This document shows, one piece after another, positions 5,499 through 18,295 of a stretch of DNA of 60,090 nt. The DNA is taken from positions 1 to 60,090 of the IMG/VR virus record IMGVR_UViG_3300002053_000022. One strand, written 5' to 3'. This DNA is from a virus. A program made the translations under genes and the position numbers. Numbering within the stretch: the first letter of the stretch is position 1; the number at the start of each line of letters is the position of its first letter. Below the pieces are notes generated by a model. That model did no database searches and was not told the DNA's origin. It worked only from the letters and a program-made list of their open reading frames with translations.

Positions 5499-6827
5499 AT
5501 GAACGCACATATAAAAAAATTACTAGAAAATTTAGCTAAATCTTTTGAAAAGGATTTGGAGAAAGTAGAGGCATTATTTGAATATGCCAAAAGAAAAATT
5601 AGCGAAGAGACAAACAAGAAAGAACCTGCATTAAGTGTTTCGGCTTTACATGCAGTTAGAGCACACTTAACAACAGAACAAGGAAAAGTAGGAAAAGAAA
5701 TTAATGTAGTCTTTTTTGGTAAAGATCCAAGCAGAGATACTAACGCCTCTTCAATTAAAGAAATTTTAGCTGACTTTTGGAATAATCCAGAATCACGAAA
5801 AAAGGTAATTGAAGAAGGAAAAATAATTGTTTTAAAAGTTGCTGATGGAGATCCAAAGAAAGATTTTCACAAAATGTATAAACCACTCGTCACACTTGAC
5901 GAATATGTGGAAGTTGATGGAGAAGTTGTTCCAACTAAAGGAAAACTCTGGGATCCAACAACAAATGAAGATCCTCTTCCAAGAGACAATAGAACACATT
6001 TAGACGAAGAAGGAGAAACAACAAATTGGAACTACACACATCCTTTAAAACCAAATTGGAAAACAACTCTGTTCGGAATAGGATATTTTGAAGACACACC
6101 AAATATTATTAAGAAAATTCAAGTAAGATTTTATGGGGATATTGGAGACCCACAATCTGGGCAATTTGTTTGTAAGCATATCTCATTCTTTAAGTCTTAT
6201 AAATTAAAGGTTCAAGTGGCTGAAAACATGAGCACAGAAGAATGTTATGTTTTAACAGCAAAATCAAAACCAGTATTAGCAGAAGAACCTGGCGCAGACT
6301 TAGATGTTGTAACTCTTATGGATGGAATTAATACAAATTGGATGATTCAACAAGAAGCCAAAGGAAATGAACCTAAACCATTAATTCCAATTATTGAATT
6401 ATCTGATTTAAAAGAATGGCATGTTGAAAGAAGAGCAAGAAAAGACGAAAACGGAGAAATTCTTAAAGCTCCAAGTGGATGGGATTTAACAAATTGGGAT
6501 GAATATTGTTTAATAGATCAAGTCACATATTTAGGAAAACGACAATTTACTGAAACATACGCTCCAGCAGTAATCCAACATGATTCAACTGGAAGAGAAA
6601 CAATGTTTGTTAATTATGATGACAATTTAGATTTAGATATTCCAATTCCATCAGATATTTTAATCTGCGTAAAAACTGGAAGAGGAACGACTAAATATGA
6701 TAGAGAAGCGAAAGCTAAAATCGAAAACTCTGACGATCCAGATTTAAGTATTAGCATTTGTGGTACTAAGACATTAATGAGTTACGAAAAGATTGAGTTT
6801 CCAAAAGAATTAACTGGAGATTTGTAA
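5499..6827 (+). CDS. Possible ssDNA-binding (OB-fold) replication protein
   Basis: 442 residues. A Lys/Glu helical N-terminus is followed by a beta-rich body. In the body, ISFFKSYKLKVQVAE and YVLTAKSKPVL look like OB-fold strands; the C-terminal part (WDEYCLIDQVTYLG) continues that pattern, with a terminal acidic segment. Its place between clamp loader and RecA-like ATPase fits a replication protein A-type function. This is inference from context; no diagnostic motif is present. AAAAGGG precedes the ATG as ribosome site. Confidence 0.5.
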   Translation: MNAHIKKLLENLAKSFEKDLEKVEALFEYAKRKISEETNKKEPALSVSALHAVRAHLTTEQGKVGKEINVVFFGKDPSRDTNASSIKEILADFWNNPESRKKVIEEGKIIVLKVADGDPKKDFHKMYKPLVTLDEYVEVDGEVVPTKGKLWDPTTNEDPLPRDNRTHLDEEGETTNWNYTHPLKPNWKTTLFGIGYFEDTPNIIKKIQVRFYGDIGDPQSGQFVCKHISFFKSYKLKVQVAENMSTEECYVLTAKSKPVLAEEPGADLDVVTLMDGINTNWMIQQEAKGNEPKPLIPIIELSDLKEWHVERRARKDENGEILKAPSGWDLTNWDEYCLIDQVTYLGKRQFTETYAPAVIQHDSTGRETMFVNYDDNLDLDIPIPSDILICVKTGRGTTKYDREAKAKIENSDDPDLSISICGTKTLMSYEKIEFPKELTGDL

Positions 6828-6852
6828 TCTCCTTTTATTTTAGGTGATTTAA

Positions 6853-7839: not shown

Positions 7840-7985
7840 ATTGGGAAAAGGACTTAGTTACCAGAATAGATTTAACTATTGAACTTTTAGGTATAGAAGA
7901 CAAGGAAAGTGTTTTCGTAAATAGAAATGGAGTAATCCAAATAATACCAAGATTCTGTCGTTGTTGTGGTGAAAAAATATGGTAA
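7833..7985 (+). CDS. Mini-protein with C-terminal Cys cluster
   Basis: 50 residues, overlapping the previous gene by 7 bases and the clamp gene by 7. The end FCRCCGEKIW looks like half of a zinc site. Function unknown; the tight overlaps on both sides argue that it is translated. Confidence 0.55.
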   Translation: MVDWEKDLVTRIDLTIELLGIEDKESVFVNRNGVIQIIPRFCRCCGEKIW

Positions 7986-8890
7986 AATTCTATATTAAAG
8001 CAAAGGATTTAAAAAATTTAATTGATGGAGTTTCATGTAAAGGAACTCTTCAATTTAAATCAAAAGGTAAAACAGAAGCTCCACTTTTTGGAGCTTTTTT
8101 TATTGATGTAGATAAAGCAAATAATAAGATTAGCGTTCTAACTATTGATACTTTCTTCTCACAAATTAAACAATATGCCGAAGCAAATGCAAAGGTAGAA
8201 GAAGAAGGAGTTATCGAAGTTACAGATAAAAAATATTTCGATAAATTATTTTCCTCAATTGATTTAGAAAAACCAGTCTCAGTTGAATCTGATGGCAATG
8301 TTATAATTGTAGAAAATCAAGATGGAGATTGGTATAGACGAAGAATTGTTGGAGATAAAAACTTAGATGAAGTTAATGAGAAAATGAACCAATTGTTTGA
8401 TTGGATGAAATCACACGAACTAGTCGAAGTTATAGCAGAAGATGAATTAGGAAATGCTGTAAAAAGAAAAGTTTGGAAATTTACAGTTCCACAAGGTTCT
8501 GCTACATATCCTATGAGAATAAAAACAAATAAGAAAAATCTCCAAAAGTTTGTAGGAGATGCGATTAATTTAACAAAAGACAATGATACTATTATAATTT
8601 CTAAAGATGGAGAAATAACAATCCATAGTGGAAAGCCAAACTCAACTAATCAATCAAGACACAGATTAGAATATGAGAATATTGGAGAAGAAATAATAGA
8701 TTTTGCTGTAAAATTCTCGGCACTCCAAGCAATTGTTCCAAATCTTCAAGACGAAGTTATTCTTAATTTTAGAATGACTGGAGGAAAAACAATCGTCTTA
8801 AGAATAGAATCAATGAATAAAACATTTTATCAAATAATTTCAATAGGTTCTCAAGATAAAGACGGCGTATTGTACGATAACGAAGAGTGA
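7979..8890 (+). CDS. Sliding clamp (PCNA-like)
   Basis: 303 residues, somewhat longer than usual PCNA (about 250). The N-terminus FYIKAKDLKNLIDGVS and the C-terminal segment FSALQAIVPNLQDEVIL followed by FRMTGGKTIVLRIE match the repeating clamp fold, where a helix is followed by paired strands ending in a ligand-responsive tail. It encircles DNA and tethers the polymerase. The extra length lies between residues 115 and 175. Clamp loader and polymerase genes flank it. Confidence 0.75.
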   Translation: MVKFYIKAKDLKNLIDGVSCKGTLQFKSKGKTEAPLFGAFFIDVDKANNKISVLTIDTFFSQIKQYAEANAKVEEEGVIEVTDKKYFDKLFSSIDLEKPVSVESDGNVIIVENQDGDWYRRRIVGDKNLDEVNEKMNQLFDWMKSHELVEVIAEDELGNAVKRKVWKFTVPQGSATYPMRIKTNKKNLQKFVGDAINLTKDNDTIIISKDGEITIHSGKPNSTNQSRHRLEYENIGEEIIDFAVKFSALQAIVPNLQDEVILNFRMTGGKTIVLRIESMNKTFYQIISIGSQDKDGVLYDNEE

Positions 8891-9251: not shown

Positions 9252-9397
9252 AATGTCCTCGATGTAGTGAAGGAGAAATTAAAGGAGGCACTGGTGTTTT
9301 ATTTTGTCCAGCTTGCCACTCTATTTTTAGCACACAAATGGATTATTTGTATTCATATAAAGAGTATAGATGGGACGAGCAAGGAAACGAATTATGA
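9248..9397 (+). CDS. Zinc-ribbon mini-protein
   Basis: 49 residues, starting within ATGA at the preceding stop. Cys pairs CPRC and CPAC, 14 residues apart, form a classic short zinc ribbon. Its TGA overlaps the polymerase ATG, so the pair is probably translationally coupled. Confidence 0.65.
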   Translation: MKCPRCSEGEIKGGTGVLFCPACHSIFSTQMDYLYSYKEYRWDEQGNEL

Positions 9398-10674
9398 AGC
9401 TAAAAATAATGAACTACACATATTATAATAACAAATCGGAGAATAAAAATTACAATGCTCCGATATTAATTTTTCTTTGTAGAGATGAGAATAGAAACTT
9501 TCACATGGTTTTTGTCTGTGATAAAGAGAATCTTGCTCCAGAGATGTATATTCCTTTTGAGGAAAAATTCATTGCTGAAAGTGAAGAGATTATTACAAAG
9601 ATAGAAGATTCTCCAGCATCCAACTATGGAGAAAAGGTTGTCAGATTAGAAACAACTTTTCCATGGGAAGTTAAAAAATTAAGAAAGAATTTCACACATA
9701 CCTATTTGAGTGATATTAAATGGGAAAAAATGTGTGTAGAAAAAATGGGATTACAAACTCCTTATATTAAAGTTCCAGATGACTTTAATGAAAGATGGTT
9801 AAAAGTAGAAGATGTTGAAGAATTACCAGACGATGAACACTTCTATGTTCCAATTAGATGGATAGGATGGGACATAGAAACAAATGTTGAAATAATTTGG
9901 CCGACATTCAATGGTTGGCAAGATGCTGAGAAATGTGAGATAATAAGTATAACAGCTTATGATTCTTATGATAAAGTTTATGATATATTTTTCTGGCACA
10001 AAGATGTTATCAATGGAAGAGTTTTGTTATGGAAAAATTGGGAAAGAAAAGGACAATACTATGTTCCAGCCTTAAAAAAAATAAGAGAATATGCCAGAAA
10101 AAATGATGTTTATATTCACGAATTCAATAACGAAGTTGATATGTTAAAGGGATATTTTGATTATTATGCGTCTAAAAGACCAGATGCGCAATTCGGTTTT
10201 AATTCTGAAGGAGGATATAGAATTTCAACAAGAAAAGGATTGTCTCGTAAATATTGGTTTGATGGATTTGATATGCCTTATTTATATCAACGCTGTAAAA
10301 AATTAGGATTATTAGAAGATATTAAAAAGATGTCTCCATTGCCAAAATTTGTAAATGGAGTTAAGTGGAGAGCAGATGGAGACAGACACTCCGTTCAAAT
10401 AGAAGGAGTTTGTCAAATTGATTTTATATTCACAAATGAAATTTTTCAATATCACAAGAAATTTGATGAGTTTAGAGAAGGAAATCTTCAAGGATATATG
10501 AGTTATTTCTTAGGATTTGGAAAGGTTGAACATCAAGAACAGATCTGGGAAATGTGGAAAAATAAAACAGAATCTGATTACGATCCAACTAATCCAGAAT
10601 TGGTTGGAGTAAAGAAAAGAAGAAATTATGTTATGGAGATGTTTGAAGATGGGAAAAAAATGGAACAAATTTAA
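9394..10674 (+). CDS. DNA polymerase B, N-terminal/exonuclease fragment (Exo I and Exo II)
   Basis: 426 residues from the ATG that overlaps the previous stop. It holds the polymerase N-terminal domain and the first part of the 3'-5' exonuclease: Exo I DIET (Asp160, Glu162) and Exo II within FGFNSEGG to FDGFDMPYL, the latter lengthened by about 12 residues. It continues through YFLGFGKVEHQEQIWEMW and stops at GKKMEQI, exactly where the Exo III motif should follow. Exo III and the whole polymerase domain are in a separate gene 1.6 kb downstream. The two proteins presumably associate. Confidence 0.85.
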   Translation: MKLKIMNYTYYNNKSENKNYNAPILIFLCRDENRNFHMVFVCDKENLAPEMYIPFEEKFIAESEEIITKIEDSPASNYGEKVVRLETTFPWEVKKLRKNFTHTYLSDIKWEKMCVEKMGLQTPYIKVPDDFNERWLKVEDVEELPDDEHFYVPIRWIGWDIETNVEIIWPTFNGWQDAEKCEIISITAYDSYDKVYDIFFWHKDVINGRVLLWKNWERKGQYYVPALKKIREYARKNDVYIHEFNNEVDMLKGYFDYYASKRPDAQFGFNSEGGYRISTRKGLSRKYWFDGFDMPYLYQRCKKLGLLEDIKKMSPLPKFVNGVKWRADGDRHSVQIEGVCQIDFIFTNEIFQYHKKFDEFREGNLQGYMSYFLGFGKVEHQEQIWEMWKNKTESDYDPTNPELVGVKKRRNYVMEMFEDGKKMEQI

Positions 10675-11008
10675 AGACAAATGTGAAGATTTTTGGTGGG
10701 ATCACGACGACGATGTGAAAACAGCATGCAAAGTAATTGCTGGTTTTTTCGTATTAATTATGATAGTTGTTGGATTTATAGGTGTAATGAATGCCACCAT
10801 AGAACAAACAGAAGCACTAGATAACACTCTTCTTATAGAAGGATATGTTGATGGCAAGAGATTAGGTGGAGATACTAATACACAATATATTTTATCTATA
10901 AATGGGACTGAAGTAGAAGTCGATAAAGAATATTACTTTCTAGTGAATATTGGAGATTATGTTAAGGTTTACGAAAGCGGACGAGTAGAAATAATCGAGG
11001 AACCATAA
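10649..11008 (+). CDS. Single-pass membrane protein in the polymerase gap
   Basis: 119 residues; starts inside the end of the polymerase fragment in another frame. An acidic/aromatic N-terminus (DFWWDHDDD) precedes one transmembrane helix (VIAGFFVLIMIVVGFIGVM, about 29-47), then an 80-residue beta-rich domain (EGYVDGKR, YILSINGTEV, DYVKVYESG). Function unknown. Confidence 0.6.
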   Translation: MGKKWNKFKDKCEDFWWDHDDDVKTACKVIAGFFVLIMIVVGFIGVMNATIEQTEALDNTLLIEGYVDGKRLGGDTNTQYILSINGTEVEVDKEYYFLVNIGDYVKVYESGRVEIIEEP

Positions 11009-11212
11009 ATGTGGGAACTTTGTTATATGGGTGGAAGATGGGTGTTAAGATGGAGAAGTGGTATTACAAAAGATACTCCAAAATGTCCAAATTGTGGTGT
11101 TTATTTGGAAGTCTTAAAAGAAGGTGTTTATCGCAAACAATCACATGAAAATACTTTTAAATGCCCACAATGTTATTATATGTTAAATATATACAAACCA
11201 GAAGAAAAATGA
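11009..11212 (+). CDS. Zinc-ribbon mini-protein
   Basis: 67 residues with CPNC and CPQC pairs 25 residues apart, and an aromatic N-terminus (MWELCYMGGRWVLRW). It starts directly after the previous stop and overlaps the next start by 4 bases. Probably metal binding; role unknown. Confidence 0.6.
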   Translation: MWELCYMGGRWVLRWRSGITKDTPKCPNCGVYLEVLKEGVYRKQSHENTFKCPQCYYMLNIYKPEEK

Positions 11213-11613
11213 TAATCGGTATAATTGGTAGTAGACGAAGAGATTCGCGTGAAGATTATTGGACACTCCGTAACAAAATTACTGATTTAGAAATAAAAGA
11301 CAAAGACCTTGTAACAAAAATAATAACTGGAGACTGTAAAACTGGAGGAGACAAATTTGCGAGAGATTATGCTAACCAGTTTTGGACACTAAAAGTAGAA
11401 TTAATTGTCAAAAAAGTAGATTTTCCTGCGTTTGGTGCTCCTTATTATGATTATGTTAAGGCTTATTATAAGCGCAATGAAGAAATAGCTAAAGAGGAAA
11501 TGGATTATCTTATCGCATTAGTCGCACCAGATAGAACTGGTGGAACAGAAAATACAATAAAACATTTCAAAAAACATCATAAAGATTGGGAAAAGAAGTT
11601 GATTTTAATATGA
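11209..11613 (+). CDS. SLOG / YspA-type Rossmann nucleotide-binding protein
   Basis: 134 residues. The N-terminal strand-turn IIGIIGSRR, the central IITGDCKTGGDKFA and late ALVAPDRTGGTENT give the pattern of SLOG superfamily proteins (DprA/LOG fold, DUF2493/YspA group), proposed to bind nucleotide-derived ligands. The ATG at the previous gene's TGA is preferred over upstream alternatives. It lies in the block that interrupts the polymerase; it is not a homing endonuclease. Confidence 0.65.
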   Translation: MIIGIIGSRRRDSREDYWTLRNKITDLEIKDKDLVTKIITGDCKTGGDKFARDYANQFWTLKVELIVKKVDFPAFGAPYYDYVKAYYKRNEEIAKEEMDYLIALVAPDRTGGTENTIKHFKKHHKDWEKKLILI

Positions 11614-11792
11614 AAGAGTGTTTTATTTGTAAAAAAAGTAGTTTTGATGATAATAACATACAAGTTAATGTATGTTTAAAATGCTTTGTGGAAGATTTCC
11701 TAAAATTAGTTTTGGAAGACCCTCCAAGAAGTGTTAAGGAAGCAACAAGTATTTACGAACTTCTTCTGAAAAAAATTGGTGAGTTTAAATGA
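11610..11792 (+). CDS. Cys-rich mini-protein
   Basis: 60 residues. CFIC and CLKC pairs 16 residues apart suggest a zinc knuckle, followed by a helical tail. ATGA overlaps on both sides suggest coupled translation. Function unknown. Confidence 0.55.
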   Translation: MKECFICKKSSFDDNNIQVNVCLKCFVEDFLKLVLEDPPRSVKEATSIYELLLKKIGEFK

Positions 11793-11965
11793 ATTTAATA
11801 ACTAGAATTGCAACAAAAATAGTAGTAAAATTACAACATCCGAGATATATTGGTTGGTGTTATGCCGCATACAAATTTTATAGATATGTATTAGGTTATC
11901 ACAAATATAAAGCTTGGAAAGGCGCATTTTTGTTAAATAATTTACGAACTACTTTTAAAAGGTGA
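11789..11965 (+). CDS. Small basic aromatic protein
   Basis: 58 residues, rich in Lys, Arg and Tyr (YKFYRYVLGYHKYKAWKG), with no acidic residues that I can see. Could bind nucleic acid or membrane. Starts in ATGA overlap with the preceding gene; its TGA lies in the next gene's ribosome site (AAAAGGTGAG). Confidence 0.5.
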   Translation: MNLITRIATKIVVKLQHPRYIGWCYAAYKFYRYVLGYHKYKAWKGAFLLNNLRTTFKR

Positions 11966-11971
11966 GTTTAA

Positions 11972-12169
11972 ATGAAGATAAAGGCAAAAGTTATAAGTGA
12001 TGATAAATTTCTCACACTTAGAGAATTGGATGAAGCATTTATGAAAGGAACATTGTTTTATCTTGAAACAATGAAATGGAAAGAAAAGGATGATGGTTTA
12101 GAAATAATAATTTTATTGAGGGATTATCCAAATGCTGGAATTTACGATTCCTTTCAAGCAGAAAAATAA
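11972..12169 (+). CDS. Small hypothetical protein
   Basis: 65 residues, mixed charge, no family recognised. Start supported by AAGGTGAG six bases upstream. Its 3' end overlaps the next gene by 38 bases. Confidence 0.5.
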   Translation: MKIKAKVISDDKFLTLRELDEAFMKGTLFYLETMKWKEKDDGLEIIILLRDYPNAGIYDSFQAEK

Positions 12170-12320
12170 AAGGTTTAGAAAATGTGAAGAATGTGGTAAA
12201 AAGAAATTCACATCTAAACTATATGATGTTTATGATACTGGATTAAATTACTATCAACAGATAATTTGTTGTAATAAATGTTTAAAGGAAGCAAAAGAGC
12301 GTTGTAAAAATGATTTGTGA
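12132..12320 (+). CDS. Zinc-binding mini-protein
   Basis: 62 residues with CEEC and CCNKC clusters separated by about 25 residues, in a basic background (KQKNKRFRK). Resembles a treble-clef or ribbon zinc finger. Overlaps both neighbours, including the start of the polymerase C-terminal fragment. Confidence 0.5.
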   Translation: MLEFTIPFKQKNKRFRKCEECGKKKFTSKLYDVYDTGLNYYQQIICCNKCLKEAKERCKNDL

Positions 12321-13998
12321 GAAACTATTAGATTATAACTTAGTTGATGTTGAAGGATTAGTTCTTTTGAATGAAGAATTTGGTCTTATAGAAGATCAAT
12401 TTGAACAAGCTCAACTAGTTGTAGCTCCTCCAGAAGATGGTATTTACACTTCTAAAATGCACGACCACGACATGATTAAAGACTTCCGAAACGAAATGGT
12501 TTTTGATACTAAATATCAAAATTGGAAGAGAGAGCCATTAAAAGGAAAGAAACAAATCGGGGAAAAATTCTTAATTACTCTAAAAGAATTAGAAGACCAA
12601 GCAAAAAGAAGAGGATTGGTAGTAGAATATAATTCTCTTGAAGATATTCATAAAGTTGGAGGATATGTACCTCCTCCATTGAGAGCTGGAACATTTGTTT
12701 GGGTATGTGTCATAGATTTCAATAAACAATATCCAAATGCTATAATGAGCTCGAATGCGGGAGTGAGAACTCTCGTCGAATTTGTTGAGGATTTAGGAGA
12801 TAAAATTCTCGGCTATAGTATAAATGAGAAAGGAGAAAAGTTTTTAGGAGAATGGGACAAAAAAGATTTAATAGAAACTCCTATTGCATATTTTAGAAAA
12901 GATGTTCTTTCAGTTAATAGAAAGAAATTTCAAAAATGGTTAAGGTTTAGAGTTGAGGCTCAAAAGAGAGCAAAGGAATACCTTAAGAAAGTTCAAGATC
13001 AAGATGATCCTTTATATAAATTATTAGATGGAAAGCAGTTTAGAATAAAAATATTCACAAATGGTGGATTTGGAATAATGGGCTATCCTAAGGATAGAAA
13101 TTATTCTCAAATTATTTTTAATTCTTGTACTCTTATGTGTCAAGATTTAACAATGAATATGATTAAAATTATAAACGATTTAGGTTATGATACTGTAGGA
13201 GGAGATACAGACTCGTGCTTTCCTATATTACATGCTGACAATTTAGAAGATGCCATAAAAGAAGCTAAGTGGCTTGCCTCTGAAGTTAATAAGAGAATTG
13301 ATAAATATTTGGACGAAGTTTATAACATTCAAGAGCACACCATGACTGTTGATGTTGAAACAATTTCGGATAAATTTATAGTTAAAGCGGCAAAAAATTA
13401 TGTTAAAAGAAATCTTTACAGAGATGGGGTTATTTTAGAAGAGCCACAATTAGAAGTCAAAGGCATCGAAATGAAGAAAAGTAATACATCACGATTGGCT
13501 TCTGATATGCAACAAACTATATTAAATATTCTATTAGATTCACAAACAATTAAAGAAGACTTTGAATTGTTAATGAATGTGTTAGATAAGAATATTCATA
13601 AACTTCCTTGGGATTATGTAGCACCAAAAGGAGCTATAAATAATGATATGGATCATTATAAAGAGGGACATTATAATTCAAGAGGAGCAAAGAATGCCAG
13701 AAAATATTTCAACAAACATATTTTGCCTGGAGAAAATCCTTTTATTCTCCCATTTAAAGAATTTCCAAAGAAGTTAAACGGTCACTTTGTTTCTCCTTAT
13801 AAGAGAGGAGAAAGTTTTGTTTTATCATTTGACAAAGAAGACATCCAAAAAATACAAGAAGCTGGATTTATTCCAGACTGGGAAGATTTAAAGAGAAGTC
13901 AATTAAAAATGAAGTCAGATCCTTTTCTTAGTTTATTAGATACTGATTTCTATAAAGCAGTAGCGCAAACAAAAGTTAGTGATGATATGCAATTATGA
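12310..13998 (+). CDS. DNA polymerase B, C-terminal fragment (Exo III plus polymerase domain)
   Basis: 562 residues. It begins almost directly with Exo III (YNLVD, Tyr9/Asp13). It then carries palm motif A DFNKQYPNAIM (from Asp136), motif B with Lys247 and Asn251 (RIKIFTNGGFGIMGY), motif C GGDTDS (Asp299, Asp301), and a KxY-like KNYVKR. All catalytic polymerase residues are present. Joined after GKKMEQI of the upstream fragment, it gives the normal family B spacing, so the break looks clean and the two halves are probably both used. The C-terminus ends SDDMQL with no canonical PIP box. Confidence 0.9.
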   Translation: MICEKLLDYNLVDVEGLVLLNEEFGLIEDQFEQAQLVVAPPEDGIYTSKMHDHDMIKDFRNEMVFDTKYQNWKREPLKGKKQIGEKFLITLKELEDQAKRRGLVVEYNSLEDIHKVGGYVPPPLRAGTFVWVCVIDFNKQYPNAIMSSNAGVRTLVEFVEDLGDKILGYSINEKGEKFLGEWDKKDLIETPIAYFRKDVLSVNRKKFQKWLRFRVEAQKRAKEYLKKVQDQDDPLYKLLDGKQFRIKIFTNGGFGIMGYPKDRNYSQIIFNSCTLMCQDLTMNMIKIINDLGYDTVGGDTDSCFPILHADNLEDAIKEAKWLASEVNKRIDKYLDEVYNIQEHTMTVDVETISDKFIVKAAKNYVKRNLYRDGVILEEPQLEVKGIEMKKSNTSRLASDMQQTILNILLDSQTIKEDFELLMNVLDKNIHKLPWDYVAPKGAINNDMDHYKEGHYNSRGAKNARKYFNKHILPGENPFILPFKEFPKKLNGHFVSPYKRGESFVLSFDKEDIQKIQEAGFIPDWEDLKRSQLKMKSDPFLSLLDTDFYKAVAQTKVSDDMQL

Positions 13999-16570: not shown

Positions 16571-17424
16571 GACAATCATTAATAGGTTGGTATGGAGGAA
16601 AGTTTAATTTATTAAAACATTTCTTGCCGTTTCCAGCTCACACAACATTTATAGAAGTATTTGGAGGATCTGGAGTTGTTTTATTCAACAAAATTCCTTC
16701 GGAAATAGAAGTCTATAATGATATTAATTCCAGATTAATTAACATGTGGCAAGCCATCAAGATAGACAGAAGAAAGTTTATAGATTTTGCCGCTAATGAA
16801 TATGGAATAGATAGCAGAGCGCTATTTGATTACGCTAAGAACAATATTGCTGATGATAAGATAGAAGACGCAGCAAGATTTTATTATATAAATCGCCACT
16901 CGTTTTCTCAAATGAATGAATCTTATCACGGAATTTCATTTAATGGAAAAGAACATTGGCATACTCCTTATCTCAATAAATTAAAACAAATAGAAAAATA
17001 TTACGAAAGAATTAAATTTGTTCAACTTGAAAACCAAGATTTTAGAACTATTATGAAGAGATGTGATAGAGATGGAGTATTGCTTTTTGTAGATCCTCCT
17101 TATTTTAAAGGTGGAGAAGTTTATGAGCTTATGGTTGGAATGGATAAAGAAGAAAATTCTTGGTCTTTAAAAGAATTTGAAGATTTAAAAGAACTATTAT
17201 TAGGTTATAAGAAAGCCAAATTTGTTTTAACTGTTGATAACAAGGAATTCTTTCATAGCGAAGATTGGTTTTATCAAGAGGTTGAAAGAATTAATGCAGC
17301 ATCCTTTTGTGTAGGTAAAGAGAAATCAAAGGATATTGAATATGTCATAAGGAATTTTGATCCAGCAACCACTCCAACAATGGAAATTTACGAGAATAAA
17401 GTTACAGATGATATGGAATTATGA
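16561..17424 (+). CDS. D12-class DNA adenine methyltransferase
   Basis: 287 residues from the ATG overlapping the previous gene by 10 bases. SAM-binding segment IGWYGGK and FIEVFGGSG (30-38), YNDINSRL, and catalytic DPPY (178-181) are those of the D12 class, which includes Dam; many members methylate GATC. The end VTDDMEL sits over a GATGAT ribosome signal for the next gene. Likely partner in self-methylation of viral DNA. Confidence 0.9.
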   Translation: MRIGQSLIGWYGGKFNLLKHFLPFPAHTTFIEVFGGSGVVLFNKIPSEIEVYNDINSRLINMWQAIKIDRRKFIDFAANEYGIDSRALFDYAKNNIADDKIEDAARFYYINRHSFSQMNESYHGISFNGKEHWHTPYLNKLKQIEKYYERIKFVQLENQDFRTIMKRCDRDGVLLFVDPPYFKGGEVYELMVGMDKEENSWSLKEFEDLKELLLGYKKAKFVLTVDNKEFFHSEDWFYQEVERINAASFCVGKEKSKDIEYVIRNFDPATTPTMEIYENKVTDDMEL

Positions 17425-17849: not shown

Positions 17850-18295
17850 ATATTATTACAGAATTTGTTAAAGAATTTGGAGAAGCAGTAGAAGAAACAA
17901 GTGATAAAATTATTGTGGCTTCCTCTACTAGAATCGAGGCATTAGTCGATAATGATAAATTCTTTAATGAATATGATAATAATCTTCATAATTATCTAAA
18001 AAACCTTCCTAAGAAAGAGCAAGGAAAATTTCAAACAGTTAAGATAAATTCTTCCTATTTTGATATAGACAGAATTAAAAAAATACTTGAAATGTTCGTT
18101 GGTTCAAATTCATTTGAAGGCAAAGTTTATAGAGTAAATAAACATAATTTTTTATATATAAAAATTGATTCTTCATACGGAATTATTATAGCCGAAAAGA
18201 AGAAAAAATATGTGGGAGATTCTCCTCACGAAATTATTTATAATTGGCACGAGATATTTTTAGAACAAACATTTAGTAGTGATATGATATTATGA
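17846..18295 (+). CDS. Hypothetical protein
   Basis: 149 residues from the ATGA overlap, no family recognised. Helical N-terminus, then beta-rich C-terminus (FLYIKIDSSYGIIIAEK). Ends SSDMIL, similar to the ends of the polymerase and D12 methyltransferase. Confidence 0.5.
   Translation: MNIITEFVKEFGEAVEETSDKIIVASSTRIEALVDNDKFFNEYDNNLHNYLKNLPKKEQGKFQTVKINSSYFDIDRIKKILEMFVGSNSFEGKVYRVNKHNFLYIKIDSSYGIIIAEKKKKYVGDSPHEIIYNWHEIFLEQTFSSDMIL

Follow-up and report, generated by a model that had tools for sequence, protein, structure and literature searches.

I analysed a metagenome-derived virus record of 60,090 bases (IMGVR_UViG_3300002053_000022), the whole of which is called the window here. It was found that the family B DNA polymerase (PolB) of this virus is encoded in two open reading frames (ORFs), which lie on the same strand and in the same reading frame. 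The two ORFs, hereafter the N-half and the C-half, and the segments at their C-terminal ends are as follows.

9394..10674, plus strand: PolB N-half, with the N-terminal domain and the exonuclease core (PF03104, E 9.6e-11; phrog_262 positions 9-307; Foldseek matches to RB69 and T4 gp43)
10570..10671, plus strand: clade-specific 34-residue C-terminal tail of the N-half, ESDYDPTNPE...GKKMEQI (joined alignment with T4, RB69, HCTV-1, and others; purifying selection)
12310..13998, plus strand: PolB C-half, with Exo III, the palm motifs, and the thumb region (PF00136, E 8.4e-23; phrog_262 positions 308-793; Foldseek matches to PolB structures)
13978..13995, plus strand: C-terminal peptide SDDMQL of the C-half, a probable clamp-binding tail (the same ending occurs on several unrelated proteins of the clade)

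The upstream ORF spans 9370-10674, and the ATG at 9394 was chosen as its start by reference to the homologues. The N-half carries Exo I as WDIET (9871-9879, with D168 and E170 in P0001 numbering) and Exo II as GFDMPYL (D301 in the same numbering, 10270-10272), and its C-terminal end reads GKKMEQI. The C-half starts with MICEKLLDYNLVD, which contains Exo III (Y9 and D13, 12334-12348), and has motif A as DFNKQYPN (D136 at 12715), motif B as KIFTNGGFG (13048-13074), and motif C as GGDTDS (DTD at 13204-13212). The 856 positions of PHROG 262 (DNA polymerase) are matched from 9 to 307 by the N-half and from 308 to 793 by the C-half, each once. Thus, the two ORFs together represent one polymerase, cut once. 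The DEDDy set of the exonuclease is complete, with D168, E170, and D301 in the N-half and Y9 and D13 in the C-half. In alignments of both halves, the acidic residues and the tyrosine of this set, as well as the palm catalytic residues, are invariant across the clade of relatives described below.

Where exactly is the polymerase broken? In an alignment with the T4, RB69, HCTV-1, and marine T4-like polymerases, the break falls between T4 gp43 residues 314 and 315 (RB69 317), directly before the Exo III helix, which reads YNLVD in the window and YNIID in T4. Together with the motifs and the PHROG 262 coverage, this position confirms the original prediction, made from the DNA letters of the window, that a PolB is split exactly before Exo III, with the N-terminal domain, Exo I, and Exo II in an upstream gene ending in GKKMEQI and with Exo III and all palm motifs in a downstream gene. 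It had also been expected that joining the two proteins would give normal family B spacing, which did not hold. Compared with all of the aligned intact homologues, the N-half has 34 additional C-terminal residues and the C-half has 3 additional N-terminal residues. Thus, the joined spacing is not quite normal. The 34-residue tail, absent from the aligned intact polymerases, is conserved across the clade with a core of S-[DN]-Y-D-P. The ratio of nonsynonymous to synonymous substitution rates (dN/dS) between two of the lineages, L004 and L006, is about 0.20 in the tail, 0.10 in the N-half as a whole, and 0.08 in the C-half. Strong purifying selection thus acts on both halves. The tail probably helps the docking of the N-half.

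Relatives were gathered by scanning IMG/VR with either half or with parts of them. The same split was found in every relative that spans the site, namely in seven contigs besides the window (L002-L008), and five lineages can be distinguished. Their proteins are 59-71% identical to those of the window, except for L002, which is nearly the same virus. An eighth contig, L135, stops just short of the junction, and the split cannot be judged there. Since the window comes from a metagenome, an assembly artefact or a chimeric contig might have separated the halves, and the original prediction had named an assembly error as something that would refute it. However, the relatives come from several metagenomes, and the independent contigs sharing the split include both divergent lineages and near-identical pairs out of different samples (L004/L005 and L007/L008). 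An assembly error can be excluded as the cause for practical purposes.

The five lineages group together as one clade in the trees of each half, with support of 100/100. In each record, a single N-half and a single C-half are present, and PolB is otherwise absent. When various segments of the two halves were used in viral scans, no closer intact relative appeared, the next sequences being intact polymerases at about 22-29% identity, and one scan of the GTDB species genomes found no cellular or proviral copy. It is most likely that the split happened once, before the divergence of the five lineages, and has been kept through long evolution.

Between the halves, the window has a gap of 1635 nucleotides (10675-12309) with seven small ORFs, most of which overlap end to start. 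The original prediction had counted about 1.6 kb and seven small genes, none a recognisable homing endonuclease, and indeed no gap gene matches a homing endonuclease family. The spacer genes are as follows.

10649..11008, plus strand: gene 1, small protein with one hydrophobic segment, overlapping the N-half end by 26 nucleotides (no family match)
11009..11212, plus strand: gene 2, zinc-ribbon-like (weak zinc-ribbon matches, none over the cut-off)
11209..11613, plus strand: gene 3, 134 residues, no function assigned (phrog_16939, of unknown function, E 2.7e-4)
11610..11792, plus strand: gene 4, small CxxC protein (family search and comparison of the gap genes)
11789..11965, plus strand: gene 5, small protein, no function assigned (ORF; family and PHROG searches)
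11972..12169, plus strand: gene 6, small protein, no function assigned (ORF; family and PHROG searches)
12132..12320, plus strand: gene 7, small CxxC protein, overlapping the C-half start by 11 nucleotides (family search and comparison of the gap genes)

The stop codon of the N-half overlaps the next gene in all five lineages, by 4 to 32 nucleotides, and in four of the five the gene before the C-half runs past the C-half start. The remaining lineage, L006, has GAGGTG just upstream of the ATG of its C-half. These overlapping stops and starts, together with the GAGGTG sequence, give the layout of independently translated operon genes. The spacer length is 1635 nucleotides in the window, 931 in L003, 612 in L004 (600 with a longer ORF start), 367 in L008, and 154 in L006, and the small genes inside it differ among the lineages. 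Thus, the split predates the present gene block. The original prediction had taken the block to be inserted into the polymerase gene and had proposed an alignment with intact polymerases to see whether the gap is a clean insertion. The idea of an inserted block is not supported; 34 and 3 extra residues flank the gap, and the spacer is not a fixed insertion. Rather than an insertion that broke the gene, the block is better regarded as cargo that arrived later at a gene boundary already in existence.

Could a full-length polymerase still be made? The gap might be an intron (group I, group II, or an archaeal bulge-helix-bulge intron), or the halves might be joined by a split intein. The shared strand and reading frame of the halves would fit this, the polymerase of this clade does contain inteins in some members (L006 has one at motif C, and L135 has one within the exonuclease domain), and gene 43B of phage 25 has a group I intron. 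On the other hand, the sequences bear no sign of splicing, and a search of the window, L003, L004, L006, and L008 gave no Rfam intron match at the gathering threshold and a single unrelated chance hit at a relaxed threshold, bulge-helix-bulge introns being outside the models of this search. The length and the content of the spacer vary from lineage to lineage, a separate start codon is present in every C-half, and the tail of the N-half is conserved as protein right up to its stop. The tail lacks intein blocks, and a C-intein would not fit into the 2-3 residues that precede the conserved Cys of the C-half. Splicing of either kind is therefore very improbable.

Small CxxC (zinc-ribbon-like) proteins lie between the halves in every lineage, at least one in each (10649-12320 of the window and the gaps of L003, L004, L006, and L008). 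CxxC pairs are commoner in the gap genes (10 of 18, partly counted by hand) than in nearby small genes (11 of 69), with a Fisher p of 0.001 in a post hoc comparison. A zinc-ribbon protein as a third subunit of the polymerase was considered and rejected, since the CxxC proteins of the gap differ between lineages.

With the DEDDy residues shared out over two proteins and with both under purifying selection, a two-chain enzyme is the simplest explanation. I propose, with a probability of roughly 0.78, that these viruses encode one replicative PolB as two separately translated subunits of one operon, which would assemble non-covalently with the exonuclease site at their interface. Of the four acidic residues that bind metal, three would come from the N-half, as part of its exonuclease core, along with the N-terminal domain. 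The C-half would provide the Exo III helix with the fourth acidic residue (D13) and the DEDDy tyrosine (Y9), as well as the palm, the fingers, the thumb, and a probable clamp-binding C-terminal peptide. Assembly without covalent joining would then place the exonuclease site at the subunit interface. As the original prediction had pointed out, the two proteins would have to share one exonuclease site, if it is active, and the conservation of the residues is consistent with this. The new gene boundary may have become a tolerated spot where small operon genes come and go.

Alternatively, the exonuclease may not be rebuilt at all; the C-half would be the working polymerase, the N-half would be a leftover or have another role, and the virus would lack proofreading. 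The halves are separate genes, and the contact between them is a prediction, which suits this alternative. Nevertheless, the dN/dS of the N-half is about 0.10, and D168, E170, and D301 are kept in all lineages. Y9 and D13 of Exo III are likewise kept in the C-half, although a dead site would allow them to drift. A dead exonuclease is thus unlikely, though not as improbable as splicing.

Several other points also weigh against the assembled two-subunit polymerase. A split PolB whose exonuclease half is bound loosely or not at all would be compatible with the same data. The trees of the two halves disagree slightly at their deepest forks (support 82-94), so that strict co-inheritance of the halves within the clade is not proven. 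Moreover, models of the separate halves are of low confidence, with a mean predicted local distance difference test (pLDDT) score of 59 for the N-half and 54 for the C-half. The profile of the N-half matches T4 gp43 among solved structures and its model matches RB69 and T4 gp43, while the profile and the model of the C-half match archaeal and eukaryotic family B polymerases. At such pLDDT values, these fold matches do no more than confirm the sequence evidence.

There may be an even chance that the enzyme is a stably inherited two-subunit replicase with a proofreading site formed across the subunit interface. Proofreading would then require the assembled enzyme and might be adjusted through the ratio of the two halves, with the genes between them free to vary. 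The locus is a natural test of whether two chains can form one proofreading site and whether proofreading can be separated from the polymerase function. It also shows that a gene boundary in a polymerase, once made, can turn into a variable spot for small viral genes with no homing endonuclease there now.

How might the polymerase be tethered to the sliding clamp? The C-terminus of the T4 polymerase binds the sliding clamp. By analogy, SDDMQL at the end of the C-half is probably a clamp-binding tail. A DM[EIVQ]L ending was found on 22 of 1128 ORFs, against 0.33 expected from the internal occurrences. If the assignment is true, the clamp would hold the C-half alone, and the N-half would have to be kept in place through the C-half. 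Such endings also occur on D12 and C5 DNA methyltransferases, an AAA ATPase, a radical-SAM-like protein, and small proteins; those in the window lie at 13978-13995, 17404-17421, and 18275-18292, and further ones lie in the records G001-G004. Just upstream of the polymerase, a 303-residue protein is encoded at 7979-8890, and it is conserved in all relatives that cover this place. It has no sequence match in the PDB. From its position, one may guess that it is the sliding clamp.

Split family B polymerases as such are already known, as is the encoding of exonuclease and polymerase in two genes in Kunpengvirus. The features that appear to be new are the position of the break within the exonuclease active site, its retention in five lineages, the added tail, and the variable spacer. 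The original prediction knew of no polymerase split at this place. This needs qualification, since Kunpengvirus (Kunpengviridae, Dafengvirus linsing), a tailed virus of Bathyarchaeia, has been published with a DEDDy 3′-5′ exonuclease (gene 45) separate from its PolB (gene 42), with two genes between them, one of which encodes a DNA methyltransferase (PMC10848311). Like the present clade, which is probably archaeal as well, it is a tailed virus with exonuclease and polymerase in two genes. In the published description, the sole basis of this comparison, the two are reported as separate exonuclease and polymerase domains, and the placement of Exo III is not stated (PMC10848311). Kunpengvirus has MCM and bL19, whereas neither was found in the five records analysed here, which may be incomplete.

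The split gp43 (43A and 43B) of Aeromonas phages 44RR and 25 and of Acinetobacter phage Kimel is likewise encoded by two genes of one operon. In the same alignment, 44RR and Kimel break at T4 residue 510, outside the exonuclease domain, in contrast to 314/315 here; the window polymerase has no break near residue 510. Thus, the split PolBs with a checked site (44RR and Kimel) are interrupted in the polymerase part, with the exonuclease intact, whereas the break described here lies inside the exonuclease active site and is retained in at least five divergent lineages. In phage 25, the 43A and 43B proteins co-purify and are active as a polymerase (PMC2988022), a working precedent for the association of PolB halves. 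Phage 25 has a GIY-YIG endonuclease between the halves, besides the group I intron within 43B. Kimel (L087 3752-8439) offers a parallel to the cargo seen here, with six small ORFs separating 43A from 43B at a different split site.

Among archaea, the PolB3 of Methanobacteriales and of Nanoarchaeum equitans is a family B polymerase in two genes, and the split has been linked to inteins (PMC4104785). These polymerases are cellular, and in N. equitans the two halves bear the parts of a split intein that serve trans-splicing, in contrast to the window junction, which has no intein. The break sites of both reportedly lie in the polymerase part. The intact gp43 of T4 and RB69 and the PolB of HCTV-1, the nearest sequences at about 24% identity, have the same domain order and motifs; they are encoded by one gene and lack the 34-residue tail before Exo III.

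The other genes of the window include a large terminase subunit, a clamp-loader ATPase, and a deoxynucleoside monophosphate kinase. From the set of replication genes and from the haloviral polymerases among the nearer matches, one might guess that the host is an archaeon. The viruses of the split clade are a small group of uncultured tailed viruses, probably with archaeal hosts.

Inteins have entered the polymerase of this clade at least twice, in L006 and L135, and the split of the archaeal PolB3 genes has been attributed to faulty intein excision (PMC4104785). As a hint only, the Cys conserved close to the beginning of the C-half would match the +1 residue of a former intein, with no intein sequence left at the junction. 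The intein of L006 comprises 321 residues at motif C (GGD|TDS) of the C-half (L006 1327-3954, about residues 292-612 of the ORF) and has a weak LAGLIDADG match. In L135, an intein-like insert lies between GFN and SEGGY within the exonuclease domain of the N-half (approximately 5845-6834). Elsewhere in the L006 record (G003:C1:22471-22617), a LAGLIDADG match over the cut-off lies in a 704-residue frame, which is perhaps a second intein.

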